Assembly: GCF_000813725.1 (NCBI RefSeq)
Contig: NZ_JWLD01000037.1
Location: forward strand, 62,001-126,000
Length of the DNA stretch: 64,000 nt
Source of the DNA: Leisingera sp. ANG-Vp
Lineage (GTDB): Bacteria > Pseudomonadota > Alphaproteobacteria > Rhodobacterales > Rhodobacteraceae
Direction of reading: 5' to 3'
A program made the translations under genes and the position numbers. A model generated the notes under the pieces. It was not told the origin of the DNA and did no database searches. It was given only the letters and a program-made list of their open reading frames with translations. Position 1 is the first letter of the stretch; each line of letters begins with the position of its first letter. Below, in pieces: positions 37,342 through 54,616 of this stretch.

Positions 37342-39807
37342 TTACTCCGGCATGTATTTCTCCGACCAGCTTTCGCCAGCAGCGCCGCTGGCGATCAGTG
37401 CTTCAGCCTGGTCTACGGAATAGCCCAGCCGTGCCAGAATTGCCCGTGTGTGCTCGCCGTATTTCGGCGCCGGGCCGGGGATGGTGATGCGGCCTGCCTG
37501 CGGGCGCACCGCATTGGGCGCCACCAGATCGCACCAGCGGCCCATCGGGTGCCGGTCGTGGCGGATCACCCGGAAAGTCGCCTCGGACAGGTCGATATTG
37601 CCCTCGCTCTCCAGCTGCAGCGCCGCGTCCCGGGTTTCATGCAGCGAAGACAGCGGCACCGCTGTGGCGGAAGTGCCGTTAAAAGCCGCGCGCCAATGGG
37701 CCAGCGGCAGGGTAGCAAACCGTTCTGACAAGGCGCTGTGCAGCTGATCCTCCGGCAGTTCCGACAGGTCCGCCAGCTCCGGCACCCGCGCCAGTGCTAC
37801 GCCGCGTTCGGTGGGGGCGGCGAAGAAGAACCAGGCGTCGGCGGCCAGGTAGCAGTGGTAGAACGGCCCCCAGCCCAAGGCACCCCGGCCCGAAGGTTCG
37901 TCAAAGGGCACCCGGGTTTCGTGGTCGTACATGAACTGCGCCTGGATCAGGTTGCCGGCGCCTGCCAGCGAAGCCCGCGCGACCCCGCCCCTGCCCGTCT
38001 CCTTGAGCCGCAACAGCGCTCCGCCCAGGGCGACACAGGCGCAGAAGCCTGTGAGCACGTCGATGGTGCCGAAATGGGCGTGTTCCTCGGGCGTCTCCAT
38101 GCCGCCGCCAAAGCGCACCATCACGCCGGTTGCCGCCTGCGCCAGGTCATCATAGCCGAGGTGATCGGATTTCGGGCCCCGCATCGGTCCGCCAAAGGCA
38201 TCCAGCTGCACCAGGATCAGGCGCGGGTTGATCGCGGCCAGCCGCTCCGGCGTGAGACCCAGTTTGTCGCGCTGCTCATCGGTGCCGTTCATGGTGATCA
38301 CATCGGCATCCGCGATCAGCCTGGCCAGCGCCTCCTGCCCTTCATCGGTTCGCAGGTTCAGCAGGATGCTCTCCTTGCCGCGCTGCGCGTGGATGCCGAA
38401 GACAACGGTGTTCCACGGGTCCACCGACGGCTCCACCGCCTGCACCAGGGTCAGGTCGGCGCCGTAGCGGGCCAGGGTCGAGCCGATGGTCGGCCCGGCG
38501 ATCACATTGGTGAGGTCGACAACTTTCAGCCCGTCAAGCCAGCCCCTGCCCTCTTGACCGCTGGCGCCGCCGCGTTCAGGTTCCGCCAGCAGCACCGCCA
38601 GATCAGCCTCCGCCGCGCTGGATTTCTGCGCTGCGGCCTCGTCGCCGGACAGCCAGGCCACATTGCCCATCTGCCGCATCGCACCGTGCTTGGCATCCTC
38701 CACCTGCAGCACTAGGCCCGAGGCCAGCGCGTGCGGATCGTCCAGCCACTCCTTAGTGAAACGCTGCGCGGTGGCGGGCGCCTTGGCGGCACCGAACAGC
38801 GCTTCCCATTCATGCGAGGGCTTGGTCAGGAAGGCCTGTTTCATCGCCGTGGAGACCCGCGCCCGGTCGGACGGCCCCACCGGGTAGTTGCGCATCGACC
38901 ATTCCGCGGGCCAGTCCTTGGTGTCCAGGTAAGCGGAGAAATCCGGCAGCTCGTCGGCCAGCTCTTTCAGTCCCAGTGTTTCCAGCACCCGGCGCGGATG
39001 GGTGGCGACCGAGCTGCTCACCACATAGAAGCCGCGCCCATCGGCGCAGGTGTAAGTGCGGTAAAACGGGTCGAGGAATTCGGAAAGTTCCTCAAACGCC
39101 AGGTTCATCGGCAGCCCTTCGGCCTCGCGGCGGTCCAGTTCCACCTCGCGCGGGGACTTGTAGCGCTCGGGGTAATCCTCGATCTGCTCGCAGTTATAGA
39201 CCAGCCCCTCCAGAAGCGCGGCGGCCAGCGGCACCTCAATATGGTCACCGCCATTGTTCTCGCGGGCGTTCAAGGCAAACAGCACCGACATGGCGCCGAA
39301 GCTGGCGCCATAGGCCGAGGCAAGGGTCAGCGGCGAAAAGGATGGGTTGATGCCCATCAGGCGGCGGTTCAGGCCCATGTCGGTGAACTGGCCGGTATAG
39401 GCAGCGATGACCGCCTCCCATGCGGGCAGGTCCGCAAGTTCGGCGTCGGTAGAGGCAAAGCCCGGAAGCGACAGATAGACCAGTTGATCATTGGCGGCGC
39501 GCAGCACATCCGGGCCGAGGCCGAGGCGGTTCATCACACCGGGGCGGAAGTTCTCGATCACCACATCTGCGCGCTTGGCAAGCTCAATGGCGGTAGCGCG
39601 GCCCTCGTCCGATTTCAGGTCCAGCTCCAGTGTCTGCTTGCCCCGCGACAGCATGTCAAAGGCCGGACCGTCAAACCCGGTGCCGCCGGGCGGGGAGATG
39701 CGGATCACCTCGGCGCCCATATCGGCCAGCATCATGCCGGTCAGGGGGCCGGCCAGGTAATGACCGAAGTCGAGAACGCGAATGTGGGAGAGAGGGCGCT
39801 GCGGCAT
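37342..39807 (-). CDS. Two-domain class III CoA-transferase, DddD-like
   Basis: An 821-residue fusion of two CaiB/BaiF domains (about 1-410 and 425-821). Each begins with the typical strand (IRVLDFGHYLAGPLTGMM and LKVVDLTNVIAGPTIGSTLARYG). The catalytic Asp position of domain 1 appears to be lost (SPLTLASAYGASFG), while domain 2 keeps it at residue 583 (HFGTIDVLTGF). DddD, the CoA-transferase that releases dimethyl sulfide from DMSP, has this plan and often sits with a BCCT carrier and a LysR gene, as here. A carnitine or butyrobetaine CoA-transferase is the main alternative. Family confidence is high; DMSP assignment is about even. Confidence 0.85.
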   Translation of the reverse strand: MPQRPLSHIRVLDFGHYLAGPLTGMMLADMGAEVIRISPPGGTGFDGPAFDMLSRGKQTLELDLKSDEGRATAIELAKRADVVIENFRPGVMNRLGLGPDVLRAANDQLVYLSLPGFASTDAELADLPAWEAVIAAYTGQFTDMGLNRRLMGINPSFSPLTLASAYGASFGAMSVLFALNARENNGGDHIEVPLAAALLEGLVYNCEQIEDYPERYKSPREVELDRREAEGLPMNLAFEELSEFLDPFYRTYTCADGRGFYVVSSSVATHPRRVLETLGLKELADELPDFSAYLDTKDWPAEWSMRNYPVGPSDRARVSTAMKQAFLTKPSHEWEALFGAAKAPATAQRFTKEWLDDPHALASGLVLQVEDAKHGAMRQMGNVAWLSGDEAAAQKSSAAEADLAVLLAEPERGGASGQEGRGWLDGLKVVDLTNVIAGPTIGSTLARYGADLTLVQAVEPSVDPWNTVVFGIHAQRGKESILLNLRTDEGQEALARLIADADVITMNGTDEQRDKLGLTPERLAAINPRLILVQLDAFGGPMRGPKSDHLGYDDLAQAATGVMVRFGGGMETPEEHAHFGTIDVLTGFCACVALGGALLRLKETGRGGVARASLAGAGNLIQAQFMYDHETRVPFDEPSGRGALGWGPFYHCYLAADAWFFFAAPTERGVALARVPELADLSELPEDQLHSALSERFATLPLAHWRAAFNGTSATAVPLSSLHETRDAALQLESEGNIDLSEATFRVIRHDRHPMGRWCDLVAPNAVRPQAGRITIPGPAPKYGEHTRAILARLGYSVDQAEALIASGAAGESWSEKYMPE

Positions 39808-40843: not shown

Positions 40844-40851
40844 CCCGGCAC

Positions 40852-40882
40852 AAAAAGAGCCGGAGGATCTGCATCCCCCGGC
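40852..40882 (-). terminator. Intrinsic terminator of the BCCT operon
   Basis: GCCGGAGGAT (40859-40868) pairs with ATCCCCCGGC (40873-40882), with one wobble, around a CTGC loop. On the minus strand it is followed by CTCTTTTT. It lies 28 bases past the BCCT stop, so the operon read from 48723 or 47139 leftward ends here. Confidence 0.85.
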
Positions 40883-40910
40883 CCCATGCCTTTCCAAGGA
40901 AAGACGCTGC

Positions 40911-42734
40911 TTACTCGGCAGGTGCCGCAGCCTTTTCACGCTGACCGTCACGGTACAGCGCCTTGGCCAGGGACACGCACATCAGGCCCATGACCATGGT
41001 GAAGGGCAGCGCGCCGATGATCATCGCGCTTTTCAGCGCTTCCATCGGATCGGCTCCGCCGTTCTGCTTGCCTGCGAACAGCAGGGTGCCGATCACCGCG
41101 GTCAGGATCAGGCCCCAAACGATCTTGTGCTTGTTGCCGATGTTCTGGTCGCCGCCGGACATGATGGTGTTCATCACCAGGATGCCGGAGTCAGCCGAGG
41201 TGACCAGGAAGGTCATGATCAGCACAACACACATGATGGTGATGCCGGACAGCAGGCCGCCGTCGATCATCTGGCCCAGGGTCACGAACAGCTTGGCAGT
41301 GTTCGATGCGCCGATGATTGCGCCTTCTGCGCCGCCGGTCAGTTCCAGATCGATGGCGGTGCCGCCCAGGATGGTCATCCAGGCAAAGCATACCAGCGCC
41401 GGTGCGAACACGCAGCCCACGATGAACTCACGCACCGAACGGCCGCGGGAAATGCGCGCCAGGAACAGGCCAACGAAGGGCGAGAACGCGATCCACCAAG
41501 CCCAGTAGAAGGTGGTCCAGCCAGCCTGCCAGCCGAACTGGCGCTGTGCTTCACCAGCTGCGTAGCTTGCCGCCAGAACGTCGTCGGACAGAGCAGCGGC
41601 TTCGCCTTCCAGGCCGGATTTGAAGCCGTCGAAGGAACCCCAGGCATTGGTTGCACCGCCGCGCAGAGCGTCTGCGTAGGGTGCGGCGTCTGCCGGAAGG
41701 GCTGCTGCGAAGTCAGCTGCGGACTGCGGGCCATAGGCGCCGAAGCTCAGCGAAACGAAGTGCAGGACGTAGTCGACGAATGCCGAGGCATAGGTGGTCA
41801 TGGCGAACATGAAGGAGCCGAAGACCACAAAGGTCAGCAGCAGGATGATCGACAGAACCAGGTTCAGGTTCGACAGATACTTCACGCCGCGGCCAACACC
41901 GGACACAGCCGAGATGATCGACAGGCCCATGATCGCGAACAGGCCGGCCAGCAGGCCAACGGTGCCCGGTGCAGGCGCGTCGCCGCTCATGTCCATCATC
42001 CATTCCATGCCGGTGACGGCATAAACGCCATCCACGAACTGCGAGACGCCGAAGCCGATGGTGACGGAGACGCCTAGGATGGTGGCAACAACACCCAGCA
42101 CGTCAACGACGTGACCGGCGAAACCGTTCATCAGCTTGCCGAACAGCGGGGTCAGCGCGGTGCGGATGGTCAGCGGCATGTCACGGGTATAGGCGTAGTA
42201 GGCCAGCGACAAGCCGGTCACCACATAGATCGCCCAGGCGTGAAAGCCATAGTGCAGGAAGGTGTAGCGGAAGCCCGACTGCACGGCTTCTTCGGTGTTC
42301 GCGGTCACTTCCTGCGCCAGAACCACAGGGTTGGAACCCCACAGGCCCAGCGGTTCAGCGGTGGCGAAAACCATCAGGCCGACGCCCAGGCCGGCGCCGA
42401 ACATCATCGAGAACCAGGAAAAGTCCGAGAACTCCTTGCCTTGGCCCGGTCCCCCCATGATCCGCTTACCGGTTTGCGGCAATGCGGCGACCACAAACAG
42501 GAAAAAGGCGAAGAAACCGACGATGATGATGTAGAAGGCGTTGAAATCCTCAAGGATGCGCCAGTTGAGGGCGCCCAGCTCGCTCGTGGCGTTTGCCGGC
42601 CAGACCAGTGCCCAGAGAACCAGGGCAACCATAATCCCCTTGCTGAGCAGGGCAATCTCAAGGCTGTGCCCCTGATAAAAACCGCTCGGAGATGTCTTAA
42701 TCTCCAAGTCGGTGAACGGTTGTTTTACTGACAT
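40911..42734 (-). CDS. BCCT-family betaine/carnitine/choline transporter
   Basis: A 607-residue, 12-helix secondary transporter for quaternary or sulfonium zwitterions. FGAGLGVGLMVFATAEPLGLWG is the glycine-rich TM3 (two blocks), and FYWAWWIAFSPFVGLFLARI is the signature of TM8. In BetP the signature holds the tryptophan box W-x-W-W-x-x-W; here the last Trp is Phe. The start at 42734 has GGGAGG six bases upstream; the frame opens seven codons earlier. The next gene upstream (Ldh2) is 78 bases away on the same strand. Likely substrate: a betaine-like compound feeding that operon. Confidence 0.93.
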   Translation of the reverse strand: MSVKQPFTDLEIKTSPSGFYQGHSLEIALLSKGIMVALVLWALVWPANATSELGALNWRILEDFNAFYIIIVGFFAFFLFVVAALPQTGKRIMGGPGQGKEFSDFSWFSMMFGAGLGVGLMVFATAEPLGLWGSNPVVLAQEVTANTEEAVQSGFRYTFLHYGFHAWAIYVVTGLSLAYYAYTRDMPLTIRTALTPLFGKLMNGFAGHVVDVLGVVATILGVSVTIGFGVSQFVDGVYAVTGMEWMMDMSGDAPAPGTVGLLAGLFAIMGLSIISAVSGVGRGVKYLSNLNLVLSIILLLTFVVFGSFMFAMTTYASAFVDYVLHFVSLSFGAYGPQSAADFAAALPADAAPYADALRGGATNAWGSFDGFKSGLEGEAAALSDDVLAASYAAGEAQRQFGWQAGWTTFYWAWWIAFSPFVGLFLARISRGRSVREFIVGCVFAPALVCFAWMTILGGTAIDLELTGGAEGAIIGASNTAKLFVTLGQMIDGGLLSGITIMCVVLIMTFLVTSADSGILVMNTIMSGGDQNIGNKHKIVWGLILTAVIGTLLFAGKQNGGADPMEALKSAMIIGALPFTMVMGLMCVSLAKALYRDGQREKAAAPAE

Positions 42735-42812
42735 GCGTTTCCTCCCGTTTCGCACGTGCCGCGCCTAGGCGCGGTATTCCCGGCGGTCTTGCGGAACCGC
42801 CGGATGGTGGCG

Positions 42813-43823
42813 TCAGCCCAGCAGGGCCTCGATCTTTTGCAGCGTTGCCACGTTGACCGCGACGCCTTCTTGACGGGCCAGCACGCGCTTTGCCCGCCGC
42901 CCGTCTCCGGGCAGATGTGCGCCGGACTGTCCGCGGACCGCTTCCACGATCCCGGCCATTCCAGCACCAAAAGCGTCATTTGATGTCGCAGACGGGTCGA
43001 TTGCGATGAACATTTGGCCGGTTTTCGGGGGGCCGCCCGCGGTGCCCGAGAAGGGCGAGGCGTTGATGCCGAGGGTTGCGCCGGTCAGTGCAGCGGCCAA
43101 GATTTCGGTCAGCAGCGCGACGCCGACGCCTTTGTAGCCGCCCGATGGCGCCATCGAGCCCTTAAGGCCGGCCTCCGGGTCAGTGGTCGGGTTTCCGTCG
43201 GCATCCAGCGCCCAGCCCAGCGGGATTTCCTTGCCTTCGCGGGCGTGCTTCATCACTTCGCTTTTGGCGATGGTGCTGGCGCTCTGGTCGATCAGCAGCT
43301 CCGGCTCGCCGTCGGTGCCAGGAACCGCGATCGAGAAAGGATTGGTGCCCACCACCGGCTTTTTGCCGCCCGAAGGCGCAATCGAGGCCGGTGCATTGGT
43401 GAAGCCCAGGCCGACCAGCCCGGCGCGGGCCAGGCGGGCGGTGTGGTAGCCCAGAACGCCGCAGTTATAGCTGTTGCGGATGGCCAGAACCGCAACGCCC
43501 TGTTCGCGCGCTGCTTCGGTCAGGGCCTCAAAACCCATGTCGATGGCGGAATGGGCAAAACCGGTGGCCGCATCCACTGCCACCACACCGGGACGCGGGC
43601 GGGTCAGCACCGGAGCCGCCTGGCCGTCCACCTTGCCGCACTGCACGTGCTCGGCATAAATCGGGATATAGGCCAAGCCGTGGCTGGCCACACCGTCGGC
43701 TTCGGTCGCCGCGGTGGCAACGGCCAGCGGACGGGCATTGGCCTCAGACGTGCCGGCCGCTACCAGGGCGCGGAAGGACAGGTCCTCGATTTCGGCGAGG
43801 GTCAGGGTTTTGGTTTCGGTCAT
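42813..43823 (-). CDS. Ldh2-family NAD(P)-dependent oxidoreductase
   Basis: A 336-residue member of the malate/L-lactate/ureidoglycolate dehydrogenase (Ldh2) family. GVASHGLAYIPIYAEHV holds the catalytic His near residue 49, and GVGVALLTEILAAALTGA is the late dimer helix. Family members include sulfolactate and malate dehydrogenases and delta-1-pyrroline/piperideine-2-carboxylate reductases. With the ketoglutarate-semialdehyde-type dehydrogenase upstream, imino-acid reduction is a plausible role (inference). It is 12 bases after DUF3726. Confidence 0.88.
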   Translation of the reverse strand: MTETKTLTLAEIEDLSFRALVAAGTSEANARPLAVATAATEADGVASHGLAYIPIYAEHVQCGKVDGQAAPVLTRPRPGVVAVDAATGFAHSAIDMGFEALTEAAREQGVAVLAIRNSYNCGVLGYHTARLARAGLVGLGFTNAPASIAPSGGKKPVVGTNPFSIAVPGTDGEPELLIDQSASTIAKSEVMKHAREGKEIPLGWALDADGNPTTDPEAGLKGSMAPSGGYKGVGVALLTEILAAALTGATLGINASPFSGTAGGPPKTGQMFIAIDPSATSNDAFGAGMAGIVEAVRGQSGAHLPGDGRRAKRVLARQEGVAVNVATLQKIEALLG

Positions 43824-43835
43824 ATCGGGGCCTCT

Positions 43836-44465
43836 TCAGTCATTGTCCGACAGACCGGCACCCGCGCCGAGACGGCGCGACTCCTCGGTCGCCGGAGCAT
43901 AGGTTTTATGGGCAAAGCGGTTGAGCACGGCCCAGGCCGCCTCGTCCGGTTCGGCACGGGTGGCGGGCGGCACAGAGGCAGACAGGGTGCCTTCTGTGCG
44001 CACAGTCAGGCTGGCAGGTGCATCTGGCAGAGCACCTTCGATCTGCAGCGCGCTGCCGTTGGTTACCGCCTGAAACCCCTCGCCTTCAACGGAAACGCAG
44101 ACGCCAAGACGGCGTGCGGCCAGGGCGGCAAAAGGCAGGATCATCGCCGGCCAGGCGACCGGCCCCATGGTTTGCGGTGCCCCTTGCAGCCTCCCGGCGC
44201 AATCCGACAGGGCGGCCCCGGTTGCCAGAGGGCACAGCGGCGCATCAGCCTGCCAATCGCCTTGCAGGCTGCGCGGTACGTGGTTGGCCAGCCCGGCGGC
44301 AAAGCCTGCCTCCAGCAGCCCGGCCAGCACGGCAGCGCCGTCGAGCCCTTGCGCGCACAGCCAGCGGGTGGCTTTCGCGGCCTCCTCGGCCAGCCCCCAG
44401 TCATATCCGGCGCCGCGGGCAGCGCGTTTGGCGGTGGCTTCCACTTCGTTTAGCGCATAGCTCAT
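43836..44465 (-). CDS. DUF3726 protein
   Basis: A 209-residue protein of a family of unknown function seen in marine alphaproteobacteria. It begins MSYALNEVEATAKRAARGAGYDWGLAEEAAKA (two blocks) and is rich in alanine throughout, without signal peptide or membrane helix. Its ATG overlaps the stop of the preceding 562-residue gene (ATGA), so the two are probably made together and may form a complex. No catalytic motif is evident. Confidence 0.75.
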   Translation of the reverse strand: MSYALNEVEATAKRAARGAGYDWGLAEEAAKATRWLCAQGLDGAAVLAGLLEAGFAAGLANHVPRSLQGDWQADAPLCPLATGAALSDCAGRLQGAPQTMGPVAWPAMILPFAALAARRLGVCVSVEGEGFQAVTNGSALQIEGALPDAPASLTVRTEGTLSASVPPATRAEPDEAAWAVLNRFAHKTYAPATEESRRLGAGAGLSDND

Positions 44466-46150
44466 TGGTCTGCCTCCGGGTACACCCACAGATCGGCATT
44501 GCCGGTGGTCAAATCGTCGGGATAGGGCGCGCCCGCATACATGCAGATCCGCACCCAGCGGTCCGAGCGCGGGTCGAAATGGGTGGCACCGAAGAACGAC
44601 AGCTTTGCCCGCAGCATGTCGATCGGCAGCACCCGGTCGCTGATGGTGTTGCTGCGGATCTCGCCGTAAGGGGCAACCTGGCTCATCTGCGCGCGGCGCA
44701 CGGTGTGGCGGTGCTCCGGATGGCGCAGCAGGAAGCCGGCAACGGGTTCCTCCGCATCCCAGTCCGCCAGCGCCGCATGCGCCAAAGCCGCATCGCGGGC
44801 CGGGGCCAGTGGCTGCTCATACTCCGAGATCGGCTCCTCAAAGCGCTCGCCCATGCGCGGCTCCAGCTTCTCTTCCGAGACATACCAGGCGCGGGCACAG
44901 TTTTCGCGGGCGCTCCAGTCCAGGTCCAGCGTCCAGGCAAAGCTGTCCTCGATAAGCTGGCGAAGCTGCGCAACCGGCATTGCCCCATCAATGATAAAGG
45001 CATCCTTGTTGGCATCCGCCATGCAGTCGGACAGGCCATCCACCAGATCGGCATAGGGTTCAAGGATCAGCGAGGCCGCCAGTTCCTGGCCTTCCAGCCC
45101 CAATTCCGCTTCGCTCCAGCGGATCAGGCGGTCCCAAGGATGGTCGTTCAGCAGATCATCCGAGGCCACCCAGGCCGACAGTGCCTCGAGATCCTTGTGC
45201 AGACTGGCCAGTTTTTCGATCTGCACCGGGTGCTCCGAGCGCCAGCGGGCTGCAGAAATCTCGCTCCGCCGCAGCATCCGGCGGAAGCAGGCCGCCTCCT
45301 CTGCCGAAGCGGTTTCGACTGAGCGCACCCGCGCAATGGCCTCTTCCCGGGCCATGATCCAGTTGTTGAACAGCACCGGGTGGTTGACGATATACGGCGC
45401 CATGCCCAGGCCGGTGGAGTTGCCGATGCCCAGCTGCCGGGCGGTTTCCGGCGCCAGCGGCACCGCCTGATCACCGCCTTTGGCGCGGGCCATGTGTTCC
45501 ACCAGATCCCGGACAAAGGCACGGGTCAGAAACACGGAGAGCATTTCAGCCTGGAACGGTGCGTTCAGCTCCTCCCGGCCGGCAATGGCCTCGCGGTCAG
45601 CCGCACCCAGCTTGCCCGAGCCGTAAACCGCAGTGGTGCGCATCAGGTAGCCGACAGCCTCCACCTGCCCGGGATCAGGCTGCTGTCCTTGCGACAGCGC
45701 ATCGACAAAATGCGCCCAGAGGCGCACAGAGCGGTTGGCCCGGGAAACCGACAGGGACTTTTCGTTGACCCGGCCTGCTTCCTGATGCGGAACGTTCTTC
45801 GACAGCCGCTCGATGTCTTCATCCGTGGGCACCCCGTCAAACAGGGTGAAAGTTGCGTCCCAGGCGGTGGCGATCACCCGGTCCGAGCGCATCTCGGGCG
45901 GCAGGTCATGGGCAAAGGCCACCAGGGAGTAGGTCCGCGCAGGGCCGGTGGCGGTATAGACCGCCACGCCAACGCCCTTGGCATCGATATCAAACTTGGG
46001 CCGCGCGAAACTCCAGTTTTCGCGGGCCATGCGCCGTGTCAGAACCCGCATGAAGCTGAGGCGGCACTGATGCAATGAGCCGAGCCGGCTGAGGCGCATC
46101 ACCTGCGCCGGGTCCCGTCTTGATATCGTTGTCTGCGCGGTTGTTTCCAT
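44462..46150 (-). CDS. Conserved-context hypothetical protein, 562 residues
   Basis: I do not recognise this protein. It is soluble, with no signal peptide. It has an early basic helix (LHQCRLSFMRVLTRRMAREN), then MRTTAVYGSGKLGAADREA near residue 170, and an acidic C-terminal half with several Trp. NSTGLGMAPYIVNHPVLFNNW (as two blocks) is striking. It is coupled to DUF3726 by a 4-base overlap and follows the M19 gene by a few bases, with AAGGAT ahead of its ATG. A TTG one codon earlier could also start it. The tight operon suggests a catabolic enzyme or an enzyme-complex subunit. Confidence 0.6.
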   Translation of the reverse strand: METTAQTTISRRDPAQVMRLSRLGSLHQCRLSFMRVLTRRMARENWSFARPKFDIDAKGVGVAVYTATGPARTYSLVAFAHDLPPEMRSDRVIATAWDATFTLFDGVPTDEDIERLSKNVPHQEAGRVNEKSLSVSRANRSVRLWAHFVDALSQGQQPDPGQVEAVGYLMRTTAVYGSGKLGAADREAIAGREELNAPFQAEMLSVFLTRAFVRDLVEHMARAKGGDQAVPLAPETARQLGIGNSTGLGMAPYIVNHPVLFNNWIMAREEAIARVRSVETASAEEAACFRRMLRRSEISAARWRSEHPVQIEKLASLHKDLEALSAWVASDDLLNDHPWDRLIRWSEAELGLEGQELAASLILEPYADLVDGLSDCMADANKDAFIIDGAMPVAQLRQLIEDSFAWTLDLDWSARENCARAWYVSEEKLEPRMGERFEEPISEYEQPLAPARDAALAHAALADWDAEEPVAGFLLRHPEHRHTVRRAQMSQVAPYGEIRSNTISDRVLPIDMLRAKLSFFGATHFDPRSDRWVRICMYAGAPYPDDLTTGNADLWVYPEADQ

Positions 46151-46155
46151 CAAGG

Positions 46156-47139
46156 TTATCCTTTGGGGCCAAAGTTTTCGGCAAAGAACCGGTACCAGTT
46201 CCCGCCCATGATGCCGCTGACTTCCTCATCGTTCATGCCCGTCGCGCGAAGGCCCTCTTCGATGTTTCCAAAGTCGCGGTTGTCCTTGAACCAGCTTGGC
46301 ATTTCCGGGAAGCCCGGAGCGGCGGCTGATCCTTCGCCGTAGTCGATTTCCTTGCTCCAGCGGCCGACCCGCATCCATTCCACGACGCTGTCGGGCTGAT
46401 CCTGGCAAAGGTCGGTGCCGATGCCGAGGTGCTCCACCCCGTATTTGTCGGCGGTGCGTGCGATCATCTCGCAGAAGCTTTGCAAGGTGCAGTTGCCCTT
46501 GTCTTTCAGGTGGTGCGGATAGACCGAGAAACCCAGCATGCCGCCATGGCCGGTCACCGCGCGCAGCACGTCGTCTTTCTTGTTGCGCAGGGCCGGCGAC
46601 CACTCATGCGGGTTGGCATGGGTGATGGCGATCGGGCGGGTGGAAAGCTCCGCAGCTTCAATGGTGGAGCGGTCCGCCGAGTGGCTCATGTCCACCACGA
46701 GGCCGACCCGGTTCATCTCCTTGATCACCTGCTTGCCCATGCGGGTGATGCCGGGATCCTCTGCCTCGTAGCAGCCGGTCGCCAGCAGCGACTGGTTGTT
46801 GTAGGTGAGCTGCATGAAGCGTGCACCCAGGGTGTGCAGGATCTCGACCAGGCCGATATCGTCTTCCATCGGCGACGGGTTCTGAAACCCGAAGAACACC
46901 GCGGTGCGGCCGGTCTCGCGGGCCTTGTCGATGTCAGAAGCCCACTGCCCCTTCATGATCAGGTCCGGGTACTGCTCGAACCAGCGGTTCCACTTCTCGA
47001 AGTTCAGAACCGTCTCGCGGAAGTTCTCGTGATAAGCAATGGTGACATGGATCGCGTCCACGTTGCCCTCGCGCAGCTGGCGGAAGATCTTCTCGGACCA
47101 GTTGGCATATTGCAGGCAGTCGATACGGTATCCGGTCAT
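46156..47139 (-). CDS. M19 (renal dipeptidase-like) amidohydrolase with altered metal site
   Basis: 327 residues of the membrane-dipeptidase fold. The core MGKQVIKEMNRVGLVVDMSHSAD and the PIAITHANPHEWSPALRNKKDD block keep the family's SHS and RN..D elements. The N-terminal metal motif, normally D-G-H-N-D, is replaced by RIDCLQYANW, and the bridging-Glu segment reads GFQNPSPMEDD. Activity as a classical zinc dipeptidase is therefore doubtful. Similarly altered M19 genes accompany betaine-demethylation genes in Pseudomonas (from memory). GAGGTG precedes the ATG. Confidence 0.82.
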   Translation of the reverse strand: MTGYRIDCLQYANWSEKIFRQLREGNVDAIHVTIAYHENFRETVLNFEKWNRWFEQYPDLIMKGQWASDIDKARETGRTAVFFGFQNPSPMEDDIGLVEILHTLGARFMQLTYNNQSLLATGCYEAEDPGITRMGKQVIKEMNRVGLVVDMSHSADRSTIEAAELSTRPIAITHANPHEWSPALRNKKDDVLRAVTGHGGMLGFSVYPHHLKDKGNCTLQSFCEMIARTADKYGVEHLGIGTDLCQDQPDSVVEWMRVGRWSKEIDYGEGSAAAPGFPEMPSWFKDNRDFGNIEEGLRATGMNDEEVSGIMGGNWYRFFAENFGPKG

Positions 47140-47195
47140 TCATGCACCTCGGTTTTCAAATCCAGCGCCCGGCCTCTTTCAGGCAAGGGGCAAGT

Positions 47196-47229
47196 GGCGC
47201 CCGCCCCGGGGGAGAGGCAGGACGGGCGC
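47196..47229. repeat. Short hairpin repeat, family B copy 2
   Basis: GGCGCCCGCCCC (47196-47207) and CAGGACGGGCGC (47218-47229) match the element at 32522-32554. It lies in the 138-base gap between the ALDH and M19 genes, where it may reduce read-through between the two co-directional genes. Confidence 0.55.
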
Positions 47230-47277
47230 TTCGGTAAACTGGCAGGCCGGCTGCACGGCGCTGCCAGGGTTCCTTGA

Positions 47278-48723
47278 TCAGACCGGCTTGCCGGCGCTGA
47301 TGTAGGCGGTCTTGACGGTGGTGTAGAACTCCGCCGCCGCCTTGCCCTGCTCGCGCGGGCCATAGGAGCTGTCGCCGCGGCCGCCGAAGGGCACGTGATA
47401 GTCGGTGCCTGCGGTCGGCAGGTTGACGGTCACCACACCGGTGCGCGCATTGCGGCGGAAGTGGGTGGCGCGGGCCAGCGACTGGGTGACGATGCCCGAG
47501 GTCAGGCCGAAGTTGGTGTCGTTCACCACAGAAAGCGCTTCGTCATAGCTGCCGACCTTGATTACGCTGGTCAGCGGCGCAAACATTTCCTCGCGGTTGA
47601 TGCGCATGTCGTTGGTGGTGTTCAGGAACACGCCGGGGGACATGTAAAAGCCCTCGGTCGGCATCTCCAGGCGCTGGCCGCCGCAAGCCAGTTCCGCGCC
47701 TTCGGAGGTGCCCAGATCGACATAGGCCAGGTTTTCGTTCAGCTGCTGCTCGCTGACCACCGGTCCCATCTGCACACCTGCTTCCAGCGCGTGGCCCACT
47801 TTCATCGCCTGTGCGCCCGCCACCAGTTTCTCAACAAAGGCGTCGTGCACGGCCGCGTGGACCACGAGGCGGGAGGAGGCGGTGCATTTCTGTCCGGTGC
47901 CGCCAAAGGCGCCGCCCAGCGCCAGGGAGACAGCCAGATCCAGATCGGCATCGTCCATGACGGCCAGCGCGTTCTTGGAGCCCATCTCCATCTGCACCTT
48001 GGTCAGGTTCTGGATGGCCGCAGCGGCGATGCCCTTGCCGACCGGCACCGAACCGGTGAAGGAAATGGCGTTCACCTTCGGGCTTTCCACCAGACGCTGG
48101 CCGATCGAGCGGCCGGAGCCCATGACCAGCGAGAACAGGCCCTTGGGGATATCCTGGCGTTCGATAATCTCGGTCAGGGCAACAGCAGACGCCGGGGTGA
48201 TGTTGGCGGGCTTCCAGACAACGGCGTTGCCGTAGCAGAGCGCCGGCGCGATCTTCCAGGACGCAGTTGCGGTCGGGAAGTTCCAGGGCGAGATGATGGC
48301 GACAACGCCCACCGCCTCGCGGCGCACATCCACTTCGATGTCCGGGCGCACGGAGTCGGCGTTTTCACCGATCTGGCGCAGGCATTCGGCGGCGTAGTAG
48401 GTAAAGAACTGTCCTGCCCGATAGACTTCACCTTTGCCCTCAGCCAACGGCTTGCCTTCCTCGCGGGAGAGAAGTGTGCCCAGCTCTTCGGCGCGCGCCA
48501 TCAGCTCGTTGCCGATGTTCATCAGAACCGCCTGCTTGCGCTCCAGGCCGTAAGCGGCCCACTCACGCTGAGCAACTTGCGCCTGATCCAGGGTGGCGTC
48601 CAGCTGGTCGCTGCTGGCCTGGGCAAACATGCCGACCAGATCGCTCAGATCCGACGGGTTGCGGTTTTCGATTTCGCTTTCGCCAGCCAGCCATTCGCCG
48701 GCAATCAGGTTCAGTTTGGTCAC
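47278..48723 (-). CDS. NAD(P)-dependent aldehyde dehydrogenase, ketoglutarate-semialdehyde type
   Basis: A 481-residue ALDH. The catalytic Cys lies in GQKCTASSRLVV, the general-base Glu in QMEMGSKNALAV, and PWNFPTATASWKIAPAL and FTGSVPVGKGIA are the cofactor sites. The sequence around the catalytic Cys (QKCTASSRLVVHAAVHDAF) is typical of alpha-ketoglutaric semialdehyde dehydrogenases of hydroxyproline, arabinose and glucarate breakdown. It heads the minus-strand run and is divergent from a LysR gene 107 bases away. An ordinary betaine-aldehyde role is less likely. Confidence 0.9.
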   Translation of the reverse strand: MTKLNLIAGEWLAGESEIENRNPSDLSDLVGMFAQASSDQLDATLDQAQVAQREWAAYGLERKQAVLMNIGNELMARAEELGTLLSREEGKPLAEGKGEVYRAGQFFTYYAAECLRQIGENADSVRPDIEVDVRREAVGVVAIISPWNFPTATASWKIAPALCYGNAVVWKPANITPASAVALTEIIERQDIPKGLFSLVMGSGRSIGQRLVESPKVNAISFTGSVPVGKGIAAAAIQNLTKVQMEMGSKNALAVMDDADLDLAVSLALGGAFGGTGQKCTASSRLVVHAAVHDAFVEKLVAGAQAMKVGHALEAGVQMGPVVSEQQLNENLAYVDLGTSEGAELACGGQRLEMPTEGFYMSPGVFLNTTNDMRINREEMFAPLTSVIKVGSYDEALSVVNDTNFGLTSGIVTQSLARATHFRRNARTGVVTVNLPTAGTDYHVPFGGRGDSSYGPREQGKAAAEFYTTVKTAYISAGKPV

Positions 48724-48830
48724 GGTACGAGCCCCAGATGCTGAAATTCAGGTTTGCAGCAGGATGGACTCCGCGGGACACATCAGTCAAACTCAATAAA
48801 CTGAAAGAAACTTCAACAAATCTGAACTCC

Positions 48831-49718
48831 ATGTCCTTGAAGATCGAAATGCTGCGCGCCTTCTGCACCGTGGCGCAGACCGGCAACCTCTCCGAGGCGG
48901 CCAACCGGCTGGGCCGCACCCAGTCCGCCGTCTCGATGACACTGAAACAGATGGAGGAGCATCTGGGCAAGAAGCTGTTCGAGGGAGAGCGCAAGAACCA
49001 GCTATCGCCGCTGGGCGAACAAGTCTTTGAACTGGCCCAGAAACAAGTGCGCCAGTTCGATCAGACCGTGCAGAGCATCGAGATGGCGGCTGAGGCGATC
49101 CACGGGCTGATCCGCATCGTCTCGGTGCCGTCCGTCGCGGCGCTGGTGTTTCCCTCAGTGCTGGAGCACATGACCGAGCGCTACCCGGGCCTAAAGGTCG
49201 AGCTGCGCGATACCGACACCCAGCAGGTTCTGGACGCACTGGCCGAGGGCAAGGCGGATATCGGCATCGCCTCAGGCTATCACCCGGTGAACGGCGTCAA
49301 GGCGGTGCCGCTGTTTGAGGACCGTTTCGGGCTGGTCTGCTCTACCGATCACCCGCTGGTGCTGCAGGAGCATCCGCCGGTGATCGCCGATATCACTGGC
49401 GCGTCTTTCGTCCGCAATGCGCTGTGCGATCTGATCCGCAACGAACGTTTTGTCGCGGCCAGCGGCTCAGCCGATGTGACGATCCACAATACCCACTCGC
49501 TGATCACCATGGTGCGGACCGGCAAATGGGTGACGGTGCTGCCCCAAACCGTGGCCCGTTTCATGCCGGAAACCACCGCCTTCCGCCCCATCGCCGATCT
49601 GCCGGACAAGCGGGAGGTGTATCTGTACCAGCGCGAACGCAGCCGCTTTGCAGCCCTGACCGAGGACTGCTGCGCCTTTATCCGGTCCTGCGACCTGTCT
49701 GCGGATCTGCCGGCCTGA
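48831..49718 (+). CDS. LysR-family regulator
   Basis: A 295-residue regulator. The HTH (FCTVAQTGNLSEAANRLGRT followed by QSAVSMTLKQMEEHLGKKLF) precedes an effector domain with IRIVSVPSVAALVFPSVLEH. I start at ATG 48831 (MSLKIEMLRAFC). The 107-base gap to the divergent ALDH carries repeated AAACT/AACT-like motifs (48787-48830) and a TCAG..CTGA inverted pair, which could be its operator. It probably controls the ALDH and the genes after it. Confidence 0.9.
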   Translation: MSLKIEMLRAFCTVAQTGNLSEAANRLGRTQSAVSMTLKQMEEHLGKKLFEGERKNQLSPLGEQVFELAQKQVRQFDQTVQSIEMAAEAIHGLIRIVSVPSVAALVFPSVLEHMTERYPGLKVELRDTDTQQVLDALAEGKADIGIASGYHPVNGVKAVPLFEDRFGLVCSTDHPLVLQEHPPVIADITGASFVRNALCDLIRNERFVAASGSADVTIHNTHSLITMVRTGKWVTVLPQTVARFMPETTAFRPIADLPDKREVYLYQRERSRFAALTEDCCAFIRSCDLSADLPA

Positions 49719-49724
49719 AAAGGC

Positions 49725-50501
49725 CTATGATTTGGCCGCCTGCAGCCGGACCGCGACACTCTCCAGCCCTTCAGTCAAAGCCTTGCTGCCGCCTGCGCTG
49801 TCGAAAACCCGGAACAGCTGTTCGTTCAGCCCGCCCGGGGTTGAGTGCCCTTCACGCAGGGCGCTGAAACTGCTGCCGGCATCTGTCTCAGCCCGCTTTG
49901 CCAGCCCGCTGAAGACACCCGTCAAATAGGCTTGCGCCCCCTCTTCGGAGCAGCCTTGAGCCGCCAACCAGCCCGCTGCGGTTTCCAGCACGCCGAAATA
50001 GGTACCCATCAGGGCGCTGGCTGCGGCATAGGCGTCAAATTCCTCAACTGTCTCTGCCGTGACAGCCGTTCCAAGCCCGGCAAACAATGCGGATAGCACC
50101 CGGTCCTGCGGATAAAGCACCGTCACCCCGCGCCGCTCAGCCACGGCAGGCAGGGGAATTGCGCGGGTGAGCTCGACATCCGCGCCGATCCAGTCCCGCA
50201 GCCGTTCGTGGGTCACGGTTGCAATCAGGCTGACCACTTTCTGGCCTGCCCTGAATTGCAATGGCTGCAGCACCTCCTCCGCGACCTGCGGCAGCACCGC
50301 GAGGAACAGAACATCTGCCTGATCCGCAATCTCCTGATTTTCCGCCGAGACCTGTACTTGAGCCGAAGCCGCCGCCAGCCGTGCCGAAACCGCGCGGCTG
50401 CGCTCGGACAACAGGAACTCATGTGCTGCCACTTCCTGCTTCAGCAGGCCGGTCACGATGGCCTCGGTGATCACGCCGGTTCCGATAAAGCCGAAATTCA
50501 T
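49725..50501 (-). CDS. Pyrroline-5-carboxylate reductase-family oxidoreductase
   Basis: 258 residues with the F420/P5CR Rossmann start MNFGFIGTGVITEAIVTGLL and a C-terminal dimer helix (TGVFSGLAKRAETDAG, then REGHSTPGGLNEQLFRVF). This is the P5CR motif in which the Ser-Thr-Pro-Gly-Gly turn is conserved. It is probably an imine reductase of uncertain substrate rather than the housekeeping ProC. It follows LacI by 14 bases on the same strand and converges tightly with the LysR gene (six bases). Confidence 0.78.
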   Translation of the reverse strand: MNFGFIGTGVITEAIVTGLLKQEVAAHEFLLSERSRAVSARLAAASAQVQVSAENQEIADQADVLFLAVLPQVAEEVLQPLQFRAGQKVVSLIATVTHERLRDWIGADVELTRAIPLPAVAERRGVTVLYPQDRVLSALFAGLGTAVTAETVEEFDAYAAASALMGTYFGVLETAAGWLAAQGCSEEGAQAYLTGVFSGLAKRAETDAGSSFSALREGHSTPGGLNEQLFRVFDSAGGSKALTEGLESVAVRLQAAKS

Positions 50502-50515
50502 GCCCCCTGCCCTCC

Positions 50516-51538
50516 TCAAATCCGTCCGGTGGTGCCGCGCAGGATAGGCTCCAGCTCACAGCACAGTTTGAACATCTCCGGCGCCTCCGAGGTGATATAG
50601 CTGGTGAACCGCTCGCCTGCGAGCGTGCCGATGGTTTCCGCCGGGATCCGCACCGTGGTGAGGCCGGGCTCGATATCTGCCGAGCCTTTGAAATCGCCGA
50701 TCCCCATGATGGACAGTTCATCCGGCACCCGCAGCCCGCATTTCTGCGCCCCGTAGAGCGCGCCCTGGGCGATCACGTCATTGCCGCACAGCAAGGCAGT
50801 CGGGCGCGACGGCCCGGACAGCAGCTCCAAAGCCGCCTGCTTGGCTTGCGAGACGCTGTAGGGCGCCTCGGACATTCTGTTCTCAGGCACGGAAATGCCA
50901 TGGGTTTCAAGCGCTTTCACCGCTGCAGTCAGCCGGTGCCGAGCCCGGTCGTTACCGCGGGTGTCCGGGAAGATCAGACCGATGTCCCGGTGGCCCAGCT
51001 GCAGCAGATGCTCTGCCGCCATGCGGCCCGCCTGCCGGTTGTCGGCGCCAACGCAGGGCAGCTCCGAGTCCTCTGCGTAGTTCCAGATCGCCATCGCCGG
51101 GGTTTCCTGCTGCGCAATCAGCCGGGCAGTGGCATCGGAATGCTCCAGCCCGATCAGCGCCACCCCGTCGACCCGATGCTCCATCAGCTTGCGCACCATC
51201 GCGTATTCCCGGTCCAGATCATAGCCGTGCGAGGCCAGCAGCAGCGTAAACCCGGCTTGGTCGATGGCATCCGAGAACGCCTGGATCACCTCGGCAAAAA
51301 TCGCGTGATTGATGGTCGGCACCACCAGCCCGATGGTGCCCGATCTTTTGCCATGCATCATCTGCGCTGCGCGGTTCCTGACGTATCCCAGCTTCTGCAC
51401 CGCGCGGGTGATCTTCTTGCGAGTCGCGGGACTGACCAGATCCGGGTGGTTGAAGGTGCGCGACACGGTGGAAGGCGACACTTTGGCTGCCTTTGCCACC
51501 GCAACGATATCCACGTTACCCTTCTGTTTTGGCGCCAT
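50516..51538 (-). CDS. LacI-family transcriptional repressor
   Basis: 340 residues with the LacI HTH (DIVAVAKAAKVSPSTVSRTF) and hinge helix, then a periplasmic-binding-protein-like effector domain (GTIGLVVPTINHAIFAEVI; GVALIGLEHSDATARLI). It is divergent from the TctABC-SauST operon. An operator-like palindrome lies between, 27 bases upstream of its start. It is expected to repress that operon until an inducer such as sulfoacetate or its CoA ester is present (inference). Confidence 0.93.
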   Translation of the reverse strand: MAPKQKGNVDIVAVAKAAKVSPSTVSRTFNHPDLVSPATRKKITRAVQKLGYVRNRAAQMMHGKRSGTIGLVVPTINHAIFAEVIQAFSDAIDQAGFTLLLASHGYDLDREYAMVRKLMEHRVDGVALIGLEHSDATARLIAQQETPAMAIWNYAEDSELPCVGADNRQAGRMAAEHLLQLGHRDIGLIFPDTRGNDRARHRLTAAVKALETHGISVPENRMSEAPYSVSQAKQAALELLSGPSRPTALLCGNDVIAQGALYGAQKCGLRVPDELSIMGIGDFKGSADIEPGLTTVRIPAETIGTLAGERFTSYITSEAPEMFKLCCELEPILRGTTGRI

Positions 51539-51564
51539 AATTCCTCCTCCCTCGGCAGAATTTA

Positions 51565-51579
51565 TGAAAACGTTTGCAA
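51565..51579. promoter_or_regulatory. LacI-family operator
   Basis: TGAAAACGTTTGCAA is a near-palindrome centred on the CG at 51571-51572 and contains the AAACGTTT core typical of LacI/GalR operators. It lies between the divergent LacI and tctA genes, where one site could control both. Confidence 0.75.
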
Positions 51580-51651
51580 TACTATTTTCATGGCCTAACC
51601 TGTTTTGTCAACAAAAGTAAAAACGCGATCAGCCGGGTTGGGAGGCCCCGA

Positions 51652-53163
51652 ATGGACTTCATATTTTACTTCGGAGACGTATTCTCACCGCTGTCATTCC
51701 TGCTGCTCCTGGGCGGCACGATTGGCGGGCTGATCCTGGGGGCAACCCCGGGGCTTTCCCCCACCATGGCAGTGGCGCTGCTGATCCCCTTCACCTTCCA
51801 TCTGGAAGCGGTTCAGGGCCTGATCCTCTTGGGAGCCGCCTACACTTCTACCGTGGCCGGCGGCGCGGTCAGCGCGATCCTGCTGAAGATCCCCGGCGCG
51901 CCTGCCAATATCGCCACCACGCTGGACGGCCACAAGATGGCCAAGCAGGGCCAGGGCGCCAAAGCATTGCAGTTGTCGTTCCTGGCCTCGGCTGTCGGCG
52001 GTATTTTCGGTGTGCTGCTGCTAATCTTCTTGACCCCGGTTCTGGCGCAATGGGCGCTGGCCTTCGGCCCCTCGCATCTGTTCTGGCTGGCCATTCTGGG
52101 CGTCACGGTGATCGGCTCGCTGGACTCGGCCTCGGTTGTCAAAGGCCTGCTGTCCGGCTGCATCGGGCTGTGGCTGGCCACCATCGGCTTTGACGACATC
52201 ATGGGTGCCCAGCGCTTTATCTTCCACCCGTCGCTGGGCGGCGGCATCAATATCATTGCGGCTCTCATTGGCCTGTTCGCCATCCCGCAGGTGCTGACCA
52301 TGTTCGCCAAAGGCCGCCGCGCGCAGGGCGCCGAAGTGATCGAAGTGCAGAAACACTCGGTCCTGGACGCCACCAAGGAGCTGCTGCGCCGTCCGCGTGC
52401 CCTGGGCATCGGCACCATCACCGGCTCCATCATCGGGCTGATCCCCGGCGTCGGCGGCCAGATTGCCGGGCTTGTGGCCTATGACCAGACCAAGAAGTTC
52501 TCCTCCGAGAAGGAGAAGTTCGGCCAAGGGCACAGCGAAGGCGTGATTGCCGCGGAATCCGCCAATAACGCCATGGTCGGCCCCTCGCTGGTGCCGCTCC
52601 TGACCCTGTCGATCCCCGGCAGCCCCACCGCCGCAGTGCTGCTGGGCGGGCTGCTGATCCACGGCATCTTCCCGGGCTCCGACCTGTTCGACAACCACCC
52701 GGATGTGGCCTGGACCTTCATCAATTCGATGCTGGTGGGCCAGGTTCTGATGTGCCTCTTCGGCCTTTACGTGGCAGGGCTTGCCGCCCGCGTTGCCCAG
52801 GTGCCGCAATCGGTGATGGCCGCCATCGTGCTCGCCCTCTCCGTCTTTGGCGCTTACTCGGTGCAAAGCTCGATGGGCGACGTCTATGTCATGGCCTGCC
52901 TCGGCATCGGCATGTACTTCCTGGAACGTTTCGGCTTCTCCGCGGCACCACTGGTGCTGGGGCTGATCCTGGGCCCGATCGCGGAATCGAACTTCATCCA
53001 GGGCGGCATGATTGCGGACGCCACCGTCGGCAAGGCCAGCTACTTCCTGTCCGGCGGGCTGAACATCTTCCTGATCGCCGTGGTCGTCGCCTCCATCGCC
53101 TACTCGGCCTGGATGGAGCTGCGGACCCGCCGCCATACCACCAAAGAGGAGGCACAGGCATGA
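51652..53163 (+). CDS. Tripartite tricarboxylate transporter large membrane subunit (TctA family)
   Basis: 503 residues with about 12 membrane helices. GLILGATPGLSPTMAVALLIPFTF near the N terminus and GLIPGVGGQIAGLVAYDQTKK at the centre are the two TctA hairpin signatures, with ESANNAMVGPSLVPLLTLSIPGSPTAAVLLGG (two blocks) between. The start at 51652 has GGGAGG upstream. It overlaps tctB by four bases. Given the SauS and SauT homologues downstream, the substrate is probably sulfoacetate or a similar anion. Confidence 0.94.
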   Translation: MDFIFYFGDVFSPLSFLLLLGGTIGGLILGATPGLSPTMAVALLIPFTFHLEAVQGLILLGAAYTSTVAGGAVSAILLKIPGAPANIATTLDGHKMAKQGQGAKALQLSFLASAVGGIFGVLLLIFLTPVLAQWALAFGPSHLFWLAILGVTVIGSLDSASVVKGLLSGCIGLWLATIGFDDIMGAQRFIFHPSLGGGINIIAALIGLFAIPQVLTMFAKGRRAQGAEVIEVQKHSVLDATKELLRRPRALGIGTITGSIIGLIPGVGGQIAGLVAYDQTKKFSSEKEKFGQGHSEGVIAAESANNAMVGPSLVPLLTLSIPGSPTAAVLLGGLLIHGIFPGSDLFDNHPDVAWTFINSMLVGQVLMCLFGLYVAGLAARVAQVPQSVMAAIVLALSVFGAYSVQSSMGDVYVMACLGIGMYFLERFGFSAAPLVLGLILGPIAESNFIQGGMIADATVGKASYFLSGGLNIFLIAVVVASIAYSAWMELRTRRHTTKEEAQA

Positions 53164-53615
53164 ACCGGTCTCAGCACATCCTTGGCTCCGGCCTTGTGTT
53201 CGCAGTTGGCATCTGGGTTGCCTGGGTCAGCTATACGCAAGCCCCCGCCGAAGCCTTCCTGTTCCCGCGCCTGATTGCATCCGTCTTTGTGGTGCTGGCG
53301 GGCTGGACCTTTGGCAAGGCCGTCCTGGGCCTCAGCAAGGTCGGCTCGGGCATCTCGCGCAGCATGTTCATCAGCATGGTGCCGGGGCTCGTAGTGATGG
53401 CGGTCTATGTCTTCTGGGCCGCCAAGGCGCTGGGGTTCTACACCGCTACCGCCATCGCCTTTTTCATACTGCTGTCGCTCTACGACCCGGCGCCGCATTC
53501 CGAGGGCAAGACCTGGGCCAAGCGCGCACTGATTACAGCCATCTTTGTGGCGGTGATGTACGGCCTCTTTGCCAAGCTGCTGAGCGTCTACACGCCGCGT
53601 GAAATTCTGTTCTGA
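53160..53615 (+). CDS. Tripartite tricarboxylate transporter small membrane subunit (TctB family)
   Basis: A 151-residue membrane protein with four hydrophobic helices (about 9-28, 37-58, 72-92, 122-140), matching TctB in size and layout. The ATG overlaps the tctA stop (ATGA), so translation is coupled. Sequence in this family is weakly conserved and the call rests mostly on position and topology. Confidence 0.88.
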   Translation: MNRSQHILGSGLVFAVGIWVAWVSYTQAPAEAFLFPRLIASVFVVLAGWTFGKAVLGLSKVGSGISRSMFISMVPGLVVMAVYVFWAAKALGFYTATAIAFFILLSLYDPAPHSEGKTWAKRALITAIFVAVMYGLFAKLLSVYTPREILF

Positions 53616-53656
53616 CCGTTTGAGCACGGTCCGAAACCAATAGGGAGGAGAAGAAA

Positions 53657-54616
53657 ATGAAGAAACTGATTGCAAGCGCTGCCATAGCGCTGATGGGCCT
53701 GGCAGGCACCGCCATAGGTGAAGAATATCCGGAACGGCCAATCCTGATGATGGTCTCTTACGGGGCTGGCGGGGCCACCGACTTTCAGGCCCGGATCGTC
53801 ACCATGACCGCGGGCAACGAGGATGCTTTGGGAATGCCCATCGCCATCATCAACAAGCCCGGCGCGGGCGGCCGTGTCGGCTGGAACTGGTTTGCAACGC
53901 AAGCCGATCCGGACGGCTACACCCTGGCGGCCTACAATGTGCCGCATTTCATCGCCCAGTCGATCAAGGGCGGCGTGTCCTATTCCGCAGACAGTTTTGA
54001 GCCCATCGCCAACTGGGGCGCCGACCCGGCGGTCTTTGTCGTGGCGGCTGACAGCCCCTTCAACTCCATGGCCGACGTGGTTGCCCATGCCAAGGAGAAC
54101 CCGGGCAAGCTGACCTTCTCCGGCGCCGGCCTGTTTGTCGGCCACCACATCGCCGCGCTGCAGATCGAAAAGGCGGCTGGCGTGAAGATGGCCTATATCC
54201 CTACCAAGGGCGGCGGCGCGGCAGCGATGAAGGCCGTCATCGCCGGTGAGGTCATGGGCGGTGTCAACAACCTGTCCGATGCCTTCCGCGCGCAGGAAGC
54301 GGGCAACGTCAAGATCCTCGGCGTCGCCGACCTGCAGCGCTCGGACTTCCTGCCGGATGTCCCGACCATGCAGGAGCAGGGGCTGGACGTGGACAATTCC
54401 TCGGTCAATTTTCGCGGCGTGATGGTGCCCAAAGGCACCCCGCAAGAGGTGATCGACGAGCTTGCCGCCACCGTGCCTGAGATGTTCGCCAACCCGCGCG
54501 TCGCCAAGAAGATGCAGGCCGGCGGCTCACCCATGCACATCATGACCCGCGATGAGGTCAAGGAAATGTGGGCCGCACGCGAACAGACGCTCAAGGAACT
54601 TCTGGCCGGGCTCTGA
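53657..54616 (+). CDS. Tripartite tricarboxylate transporter substrate-binding protein (TctC family)
   Basis: A 319-residue periplasmic binding protein. Residues 1-21 form a signal peptide (LIASAAIALMGLAGTAIG). PERPILMMVSYGAGGATDFQAR is the Bug/TctC start, NKPGAGGRVGWNWFATQADPDGYTL is the ligand loop region and FSGAGLFVGHHIA follows. GGAGGAGAAG precedes the start. It completes the TctA-B-C set. Confidence 0.94.
   Translation: MKKLIASAAIALMGLAGTAIGEEYPERPILMMVSYGAGGATDFQARIVTMTAGNEDALGMPIAIINKPGAGGRVGWNWFATQADPDGYTLAAYNVPHFIAQSIKGGVSYSADSFEPIANWGADPAVFVVAADSPFNSMADVVAHAKENPGKLTFSGAGLFVGHHIAALQIEKAAGVKMAYIPTKGGGAAAMKAVIAGEVMGGVNNLSDAFRAQEAGNVKILGVADLQRSDFLPDVPTMQEQGLDVDNSSVNFRGVMVPKGTPQEVIDELAATVPEMFANPRVAKKMQAGGSPMHIMTRDEVKEMWAAREQTLKELLAGL

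Follow-up and report, generated by a model that had tools for sequence, protein, structure and literature searches.

In this study, we analysed a window of 64,000 nucleotides (nt) from Leisingera sp. ANG-Vp, in which six minus-strand genes at 40911-48723 and a divergent LysR-family regulator gene form one sharply bounded module organised as an operon. We consider it likely that this Leisingera-like roseobacter uses the module to catabolise homarine (N-methylpicolinate), an abundant compound of plankton, and that the operon is very probably the same as that of a recently published pathway. New here are a DUF3726 protein predicted to be a short Ldh2-fold protein, an M19-like protein without the metal motif of its family, and a 562-amino-acid (aa) protein with a confidently modelled fold for which no convincing match was found; two probable core proteins of the homarine route are still without a known role. 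The features of the locus are as follows.

40856..40885, minus strand: hairpin resembling a rho-independent terminator (13 pairs, 8 of them GC, then TTTT), closing the operon 3′ of the BCCT gene
40911..42755, minus strand: BCCT-family carrier, proposed homarine importer (Pfam BCCT, 3.4e-141)
42813..43823, minus strand: Ldh2/DpkA-like reductase, proposed N-methylimine reductase yielding N-methylglutamate (Pfam Ldh_2; Protein Data Bank (PDB) relative 1wtj)
43836..44489 (likely start 44465), minus strand: DUF3726 protein (Pfam), predicted shortened Ldh2 fold, near-constant partner of the 562-aa protein
44462..46153, minus strand: 562-aa protein of no known family (no Pfam or NCBIfam match), proposed ring-opening catalyst together with the DUF3726 protein
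46156..47139, minus strand: M19-like protein of amidohydrolase fold with an altered metal site, proposed N-deformylase (Pfam and alignment)
47278..48723, minus strand: aldehyde dehydrogenase (ALDH), proposed to oxidise a ring-derived C5 aldehyde (Pfam Aldedh)
48724..48830, no strand: divergent promoter region, AT-rich, with seven weak matches to T-N11-A
48831..49718, plus strand: LysR-family regulator, proposed regulator of the pathway (Pfam HTH_1 and LysR_substrate)

All six open reading frames (ORFs) are present, in the order and with the families given by an earlier reading made from the sequence alone (the sequence-only reading), ORFs and Pfam matches being in agreement. From the BCCT side to the ALDH side, the intergenic gaps are 57, 12, -28, 2 and 138 nt when the longest ORFs are taken. 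With ATG 44465 as its start, the DUF3726 gene overlaps the 562-aa gene by 4 nt (44462-44465), the overlap that had been noted before. The terminator claimed after the BCCT gene was recovered as a hairpin running from 40885 to 40856; the stretch 40845-40910 has a folding energy of -31.7 kcal/mol (z -2.35), equalled by 5 of 200 shuffled sequences. The divergent LysR gene is also real, with its start moved: the 414-aa ORF at 48474-49718 is over-extended and overlaps the ALDH gene, and the protein probably starts at ATG 48831 and comprises 295 aa. That the genes form one operon, as was originally proposed, is supported.

Searching for relatives of the 562-aa protein yielded 115, and the best 80 of their loci, with flanks of up to 10 kb, were retained and scored by identity cut-offs; as this protein served as the query, its own presence in 80/80 is by construction. 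The relatives came mostly from roseobacters, with some from Roseibium/Labrenzia, one from Hoeflea and a few from other metagenome-assembled genomes, and the closest named ones (88-93% identity) were from Leisingera. Rather than being scattered, the M19-like, 562-aa and DUF3726 genes stood together in 80 of the 80 loci (M19-like 80/80, DUF3726 80/80), accompanied by the ALDH gene in 71, the Ldh2 gene in 70, a LysR gene on the opposite strand in 70 and the BCCT gene in 39. All five enzymes were found in 66 loci and all six genes in 36, while the outer neighbours of the module in the window recurred in only 1-3. The clustering of the module genes is far above chance. The 562-aa protein occurred in 53 of 385 genomes of the class sample, in 181 of 395 of the family sample and in 52 of 54 Ruegeria genomes (the genus of locus L013). 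In a scan of 131 loci, which includes overlapping loci from the same genomes, the DUF3726 gene was present in 127 and the M19-like gene in 123, and in the tabulated loci both mostly adjoin the 562-aa gene. The three genes were together in most of 20 wider class loci; DUF3726 was missing beside two relatives of about 30% identity (L131, L132).

In relatives the module is linked to a probable N-methylglutamate dehydrogenase (Mgd); Mgd converts N-methylglutamate to glutamate. Ruegeria TM1040, Phaeobacter inhibens 2.10 and Aliiroseovarius crassostreae S202 each have a SoxBDAG-like operon and an AraC-type regulator immediately next to the module. Beside the module of Shinella WSC3-e lie SoxA, SoxD and SoxB genes and a GlxA-type regulator, the gamma subunit falling outside the stretch examined, and purU stands at the end of the run. 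In tblastn with the TM1040 proteins, five of the 80 loci carried a TM1040-type Sox operon in their flanks: L014 and L020 with AraC (69 and 80% identical), L060 and L073 with the Sox part only (a weak 29% AraC match in L073), and L048 at a distance of about 7 kb. In the genome that carries the window, the nearest homologue (SoxB 84%, SoxA 77%) is on contig C127, in a trimethylamine (TMA)-type cluster that comprises FMO (tmm-like), HODM (dmm-like), mgsABC-like and gmaS-like genes and an AraC/DJ-1 regulator with 52-55% identity to the TM1040 and P. inhibens regulators; the names mgs and gmaS are provisional and rest in part on a GXGXG match. In a tree, SoxB of the module-adjacent operon groups with the C127 homologue. 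The window genome has two further SoxB-like genes, 97% identical, on contigs C133 and C2 (L146 and L145); both lie close to a contig end and are accompanied by SoxD- and SoxA-like sequence.

We read the Sox-like operon as a probable mgdABCD because its homologue in the window genome lies in a TMA-type cluster that is syntenic with a published one. In R. pomeroyi, the AraC-type gene tmaR adjoins mgdABCD, with dmmDABC and gmaS-mgs, and Mgd is stated to take part in homarine catabolism (PMC13390433). Matches to gmaS of at least 58% identity were found in five other genomes, three of which (G252, G030, G207) have an MgdA-like gene 15-21 kb away; none was seen near gmaS in the remaining two (G213, G303). 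The linkage to an mgd-type operon in relatives, together with the copy in the window genome, suggests that the pathway runs through Mgd, and N-methylglutamate would therefore be its product. This points to N-methylglutamate as the C5 product that the sequence-only reading had left general, and its guess of homarine is probably right.

Co-occurrence points the same way. In the class sample, genes scored as MgdA-like at 570 bits or more were present in 34 of the 53 genomes with the module vs 43 of the 332 others; at 70% identity the counts were 14/53 and 17/332, and a control paralog gave 9/53 and 22/332. Matches were listed down to about 511 bits, so the 570-bit count is unaffected at its low end. 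In 5 of 35 module genomes, against 0.3 expected, the MgdA-like and 562-aa genes were no more than 12 kb apart; two of the five are of the same genus, and one (G161) was added despite a match below 570 bits.

The enzyme families fit such a route. The carrier matches Pfam PF02028 (471.5 bits), in support of the earlier claim of a BCCT carrier for a zwitterion, and scores under the cut-off of each of the five NCBIfam models that it matches; a betaine-type ABC transporter replaces it at the module in Aminobacter, Shinella and G030. The reductase matches PF02615 (312.7 bits), its SHG motif (S46 H47 G48) is invariant in 17 sequences, and its best solved relative is 1wtj, a delta1-piperideine-2-carboxylate reductase (1.3e-55), in line with the imino-acid reductase type assigned before. 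The ALDH matches Pfam Aldedh at 498.1 bits. It had been called KGSA-type; 2-oxoglutarate semialdehyde dehydrogenase (KGSA, NF042993) is indeed its nearest NCBIfam family, but at 478.8 bits against a curated cut-off of 770 the name serves as a label only.

The remaining three proteins depart from known families. The 563-codon (562-aa) protein has no Pfam or NCBIfam match at E 0.001; its AlphaFold2 model (pLDDT 88.7, pTM 0.91) gave no convincing structural match in a fold comparison, and 36 positions are invariant across 36 sequences. The DUF3726 protein (Pfam DUF3726, 71.4 bits) is predicted, as we newly propose, to be a cut-down Ldh2-fold protein: about 176 of its residues map onto 332 of the Ldh2 fold, without the full-length NAD-binding part, and in a weak profile alignment the catalytic His of the SHG motif is absent from the window protein, Gln standing in its place in a variable column. 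The M19-like protein matches PF01244 (Peptidase_M19) at 242.1 bits (cut-off 26) and lacks the N-terminal HxD and the bridging Glu of the dinuclear metal site of M19. Gln86 occupies the bridging-Glu position and Leu9 the place taken for the His of the HxD motif, both invariant in 109/109 M19-like sequences, and an H-x-D string occurs elsewhere before residue 40 in 14 of the 109. H153, H174 and D243 are retained, and these and R185 are invariant in the 109 sequences. The HxD position was placed by the DGHND pattern, and the metal ligands were taken from renal dipeptidase. The description of this protein as an altered M19 was thus borne out.

Relatives of this trio were seen elsewhere. On pSymB of S. 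meliloti (L181, 8941-12387) and in Variovorax SRS16 (L182, 8938-12434), a relative of the 562-aa protein is accompanied by a hypothetical protein of about 240 aa and an M19-like gene. The transporters there are different ones, the regulator is of the IclR type, and no ALDH or Ldh is annotated in the stretch examined. The second gene of S. meliloti has no Pfam match, and the second trio gene matches the DUF3726 profile only weakly, so that the set is tentatively read as the same trio. Its occurrence would predict that rhizobia and soil bacteria carry out similar chemistry with other substrates. A haloarchaeal relative of the 562-aa protein on a Natrinema versiforme plasmid (L175, 9094-14288) is followed by an Ldh2-like protein of 317 aa and, further on, a BCCT carrier. 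P. inhibens DSM 17395 carries on pPGA1_262 (L167, 6555-17337) a copy of the module without an annotated Ldh, adjoining genes annotated as dimethylsulfoniopropionate demethylase, dmdD and acyl-CoA dehydrogenase.

From the gene content, conservation, mgd-like linkage in relatives, enzyme families and predicted folds, we infer the substrate, the reactions with their sequence, and what the 562-aa, DUF3726 and M19-like proteins each do. In the proposed scheme, which is modelled on the trigonelline pathway (TgnABC), the BCCT carrier would import homarine, and the 562-aa and DUF3726 proteins would open the pyridinium ring between C5 and C6 to give an N-formyl, C5-aldehyde enamine. The ALDH would then generate the gamma-carboxylate from the aldehyde, formate would be removed by the M19-like protein, and the Ldh2 protein would reduce 2-(methylimino)glutarate to N-methylglutamate, which MgdABCD of contig C127 would convert to glutamate and a C1 unit; LysR would control the run. 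The chemistry fits, in that homarine opened at C5-C6 would become N-methylglutamate once its aldehyde has been oxidised, formate released and the imine reduced, steps suited to an ALDH, an amidohydrolase-fold protein and a DpkA-like reductase. The betaine-type ABC transporters and the purU of Shinella agree with a zwitterionic substrate that yields a C1 unit.

Several findings weigh against homarine as the substrate and against the strength of the Mgd link. An mgd-type operon was not seen within the available flanks of 75 of the 80 loci, and the Shinella proteins match their TM1040 counterparts at only 54% (SoxA) and 31% identity (AraC). Association with the module is already seen for SoxB-family proteins of any kind (50/53 vs 96/332), and given such a protein the excess of MgdA is modest (odds ratio 2.6, p 0.006); 19 of the 53 module genomes have no MgdA-like match at the 570-bit cut-off. 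Both this cut-off and the 12-kb distance were chosen after the data had been seen, scoring was limited to the four best first-look candidates in each genome, and the statistics ignore phylogeny. Ldh2 orthologs were absent from 10 and ALDH orthologs from 9 of the 80 loci, some of these being contig ends (e.g. L039 and L068). Ring opening has no homology-based assignment, because Pfam revealed no recognisable oxygenase or redox partner among the six genes. Nor is the core trio specific to homarine, since S. meliloti and Variovorax have a similar one alongside different transporters.

It is unlikely that the substrate is instead a different N-methylated zwitterion (hydroxyproline betaine, proline betaine or trigonelline), broken down by the operon to 2-oxoglutarate or succinate. 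The BCCT carrier, the betaine-type ABC transporters of relatives, an ALDH nearest to KGSA and an Ldh2 protein near imino-acid reductases would all suit such a route, but the ALDH scores far under the KGSA cut-off, the module is repeatedly linked to an mgd-type operon and AraC regulator, and no N-demethylase is recognisable by Pfam among the six genes. For this last reason hydroxyproline betaine, which the sequence-only reading had also named, is probably wrong. The trigonelline route uses a flavin oxygenase (TgnAB) and releases methylamine, and would have no direct need for Mgd. Since the mgd linkage fixes the product side only, and trio relatives occur in other contexts, the module might act on some other N-methyl compound ending at N-methylglutamate or a close analogue, homarine being handled by other genes. 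We regard this as very unlikely: five enzymes and one regulator match homABCDER, the reported layout of the published homarine operon. Homarine, ubiquitous in the sea, is moreover already tied to Mgd in print (PMC13390433).

The trio might also be a transport-coupled or regulatory assembly rather than a catalyst, which would be compatible with homarine catabolism. Like pseudo-enzymes, the M19-like and DUF3726 proteins have lost residues of their parent families; yet the 562-aa and M19-like proteins have strongly conserved residues, and the module offers no further unassigned gene for the attack on the ring. We hold a non-catalytic role to be improbable. A further idea, which we consider less likely than not, is that the 562-aa protein, DUF3726 and the metal-altered M19 protein are the three subunits of an enzyme not recognised before, which would open N-methylpyridinium rings although it has no known oxygenase fold, its relatives in rhizobia, Variovorax and the haloarchaeon acting on other substrates and homarine being one use.

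Homarine is described as a ubiquitous marine metabolite (PMC13390433), and an operon on its route would provide gene markers for homarine turnover in roseobacters and possibly in SAR11- and SAR116-like genomes. The operon is ordinary-looking, and the enzymology of the trio is the interesting part: the candidates for ring attack are a confidently modelled protein for which no matching fold was found and a relic Ldh2-fold partner, possibly a new dearomatising enzyme.

Two neighbouring regions of the window may be mentioned. The gene at 37342-39807 encodes an 821-aa protein whose single chain contains two CoA-transferase family III stretches. The region 49725-54616 holds a pyrroline-5-carboxylate-reductase-like gene (NCBIfam PRK06476), a LacI regulator and a putative tripartite tricarboxylate transporter; the PRK06476-type gene and the LacI regulator are not conserved with the module.

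Ferrer-Gonzalez et al. reportedly described a homarine catabolic pathway in environmental bacteria in 2026 (Nat Microbiol 11:1531, doi 10.1038/s41564-026-02313-7). Its operon is reported to be homABCDER, five enzymes plus a regulator with N-methylglutamate as the product, from Rhodobacterales, SAR11 and SAR116. The earlier claim that the present operon is undescribed is thus probably wrong, the comparison being with this reported layout. Shared features are marine bacteria as hosts, the involvement of Mgd and, as reported, the taxonomic spread and the layout: five enzymes and a regulator are likewise found here across marine Alphaproteobacteria. The module differs in having BCCT inside the run. 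The tgnABCDE pathway of Acinetobacter also acts on an N-methylpyridinium carboxylate and shares the logic of ring opening, ALDH and amidohydrolase; however, none of the five module genes with an annotation is a TgnA/TgnB-like oxygenase or reductase, and the expected product is N-methylglutamate instead of methylamine and succinate. The closest solved relative of the M19-like protein is the amidohydrolase 2i5g (7e-54), which also has the IDxL start and the replacement of Glu by Gln; it corresponds to PA5396, beside dgcAB of glycine betaine catabolism, in an operon that differs from the module. DpkA/delta1-piperideine-2-carboxylate reductase (1wtj) shares with the protein of 42813-43823 both the Ldh2 family and the SHG motif.

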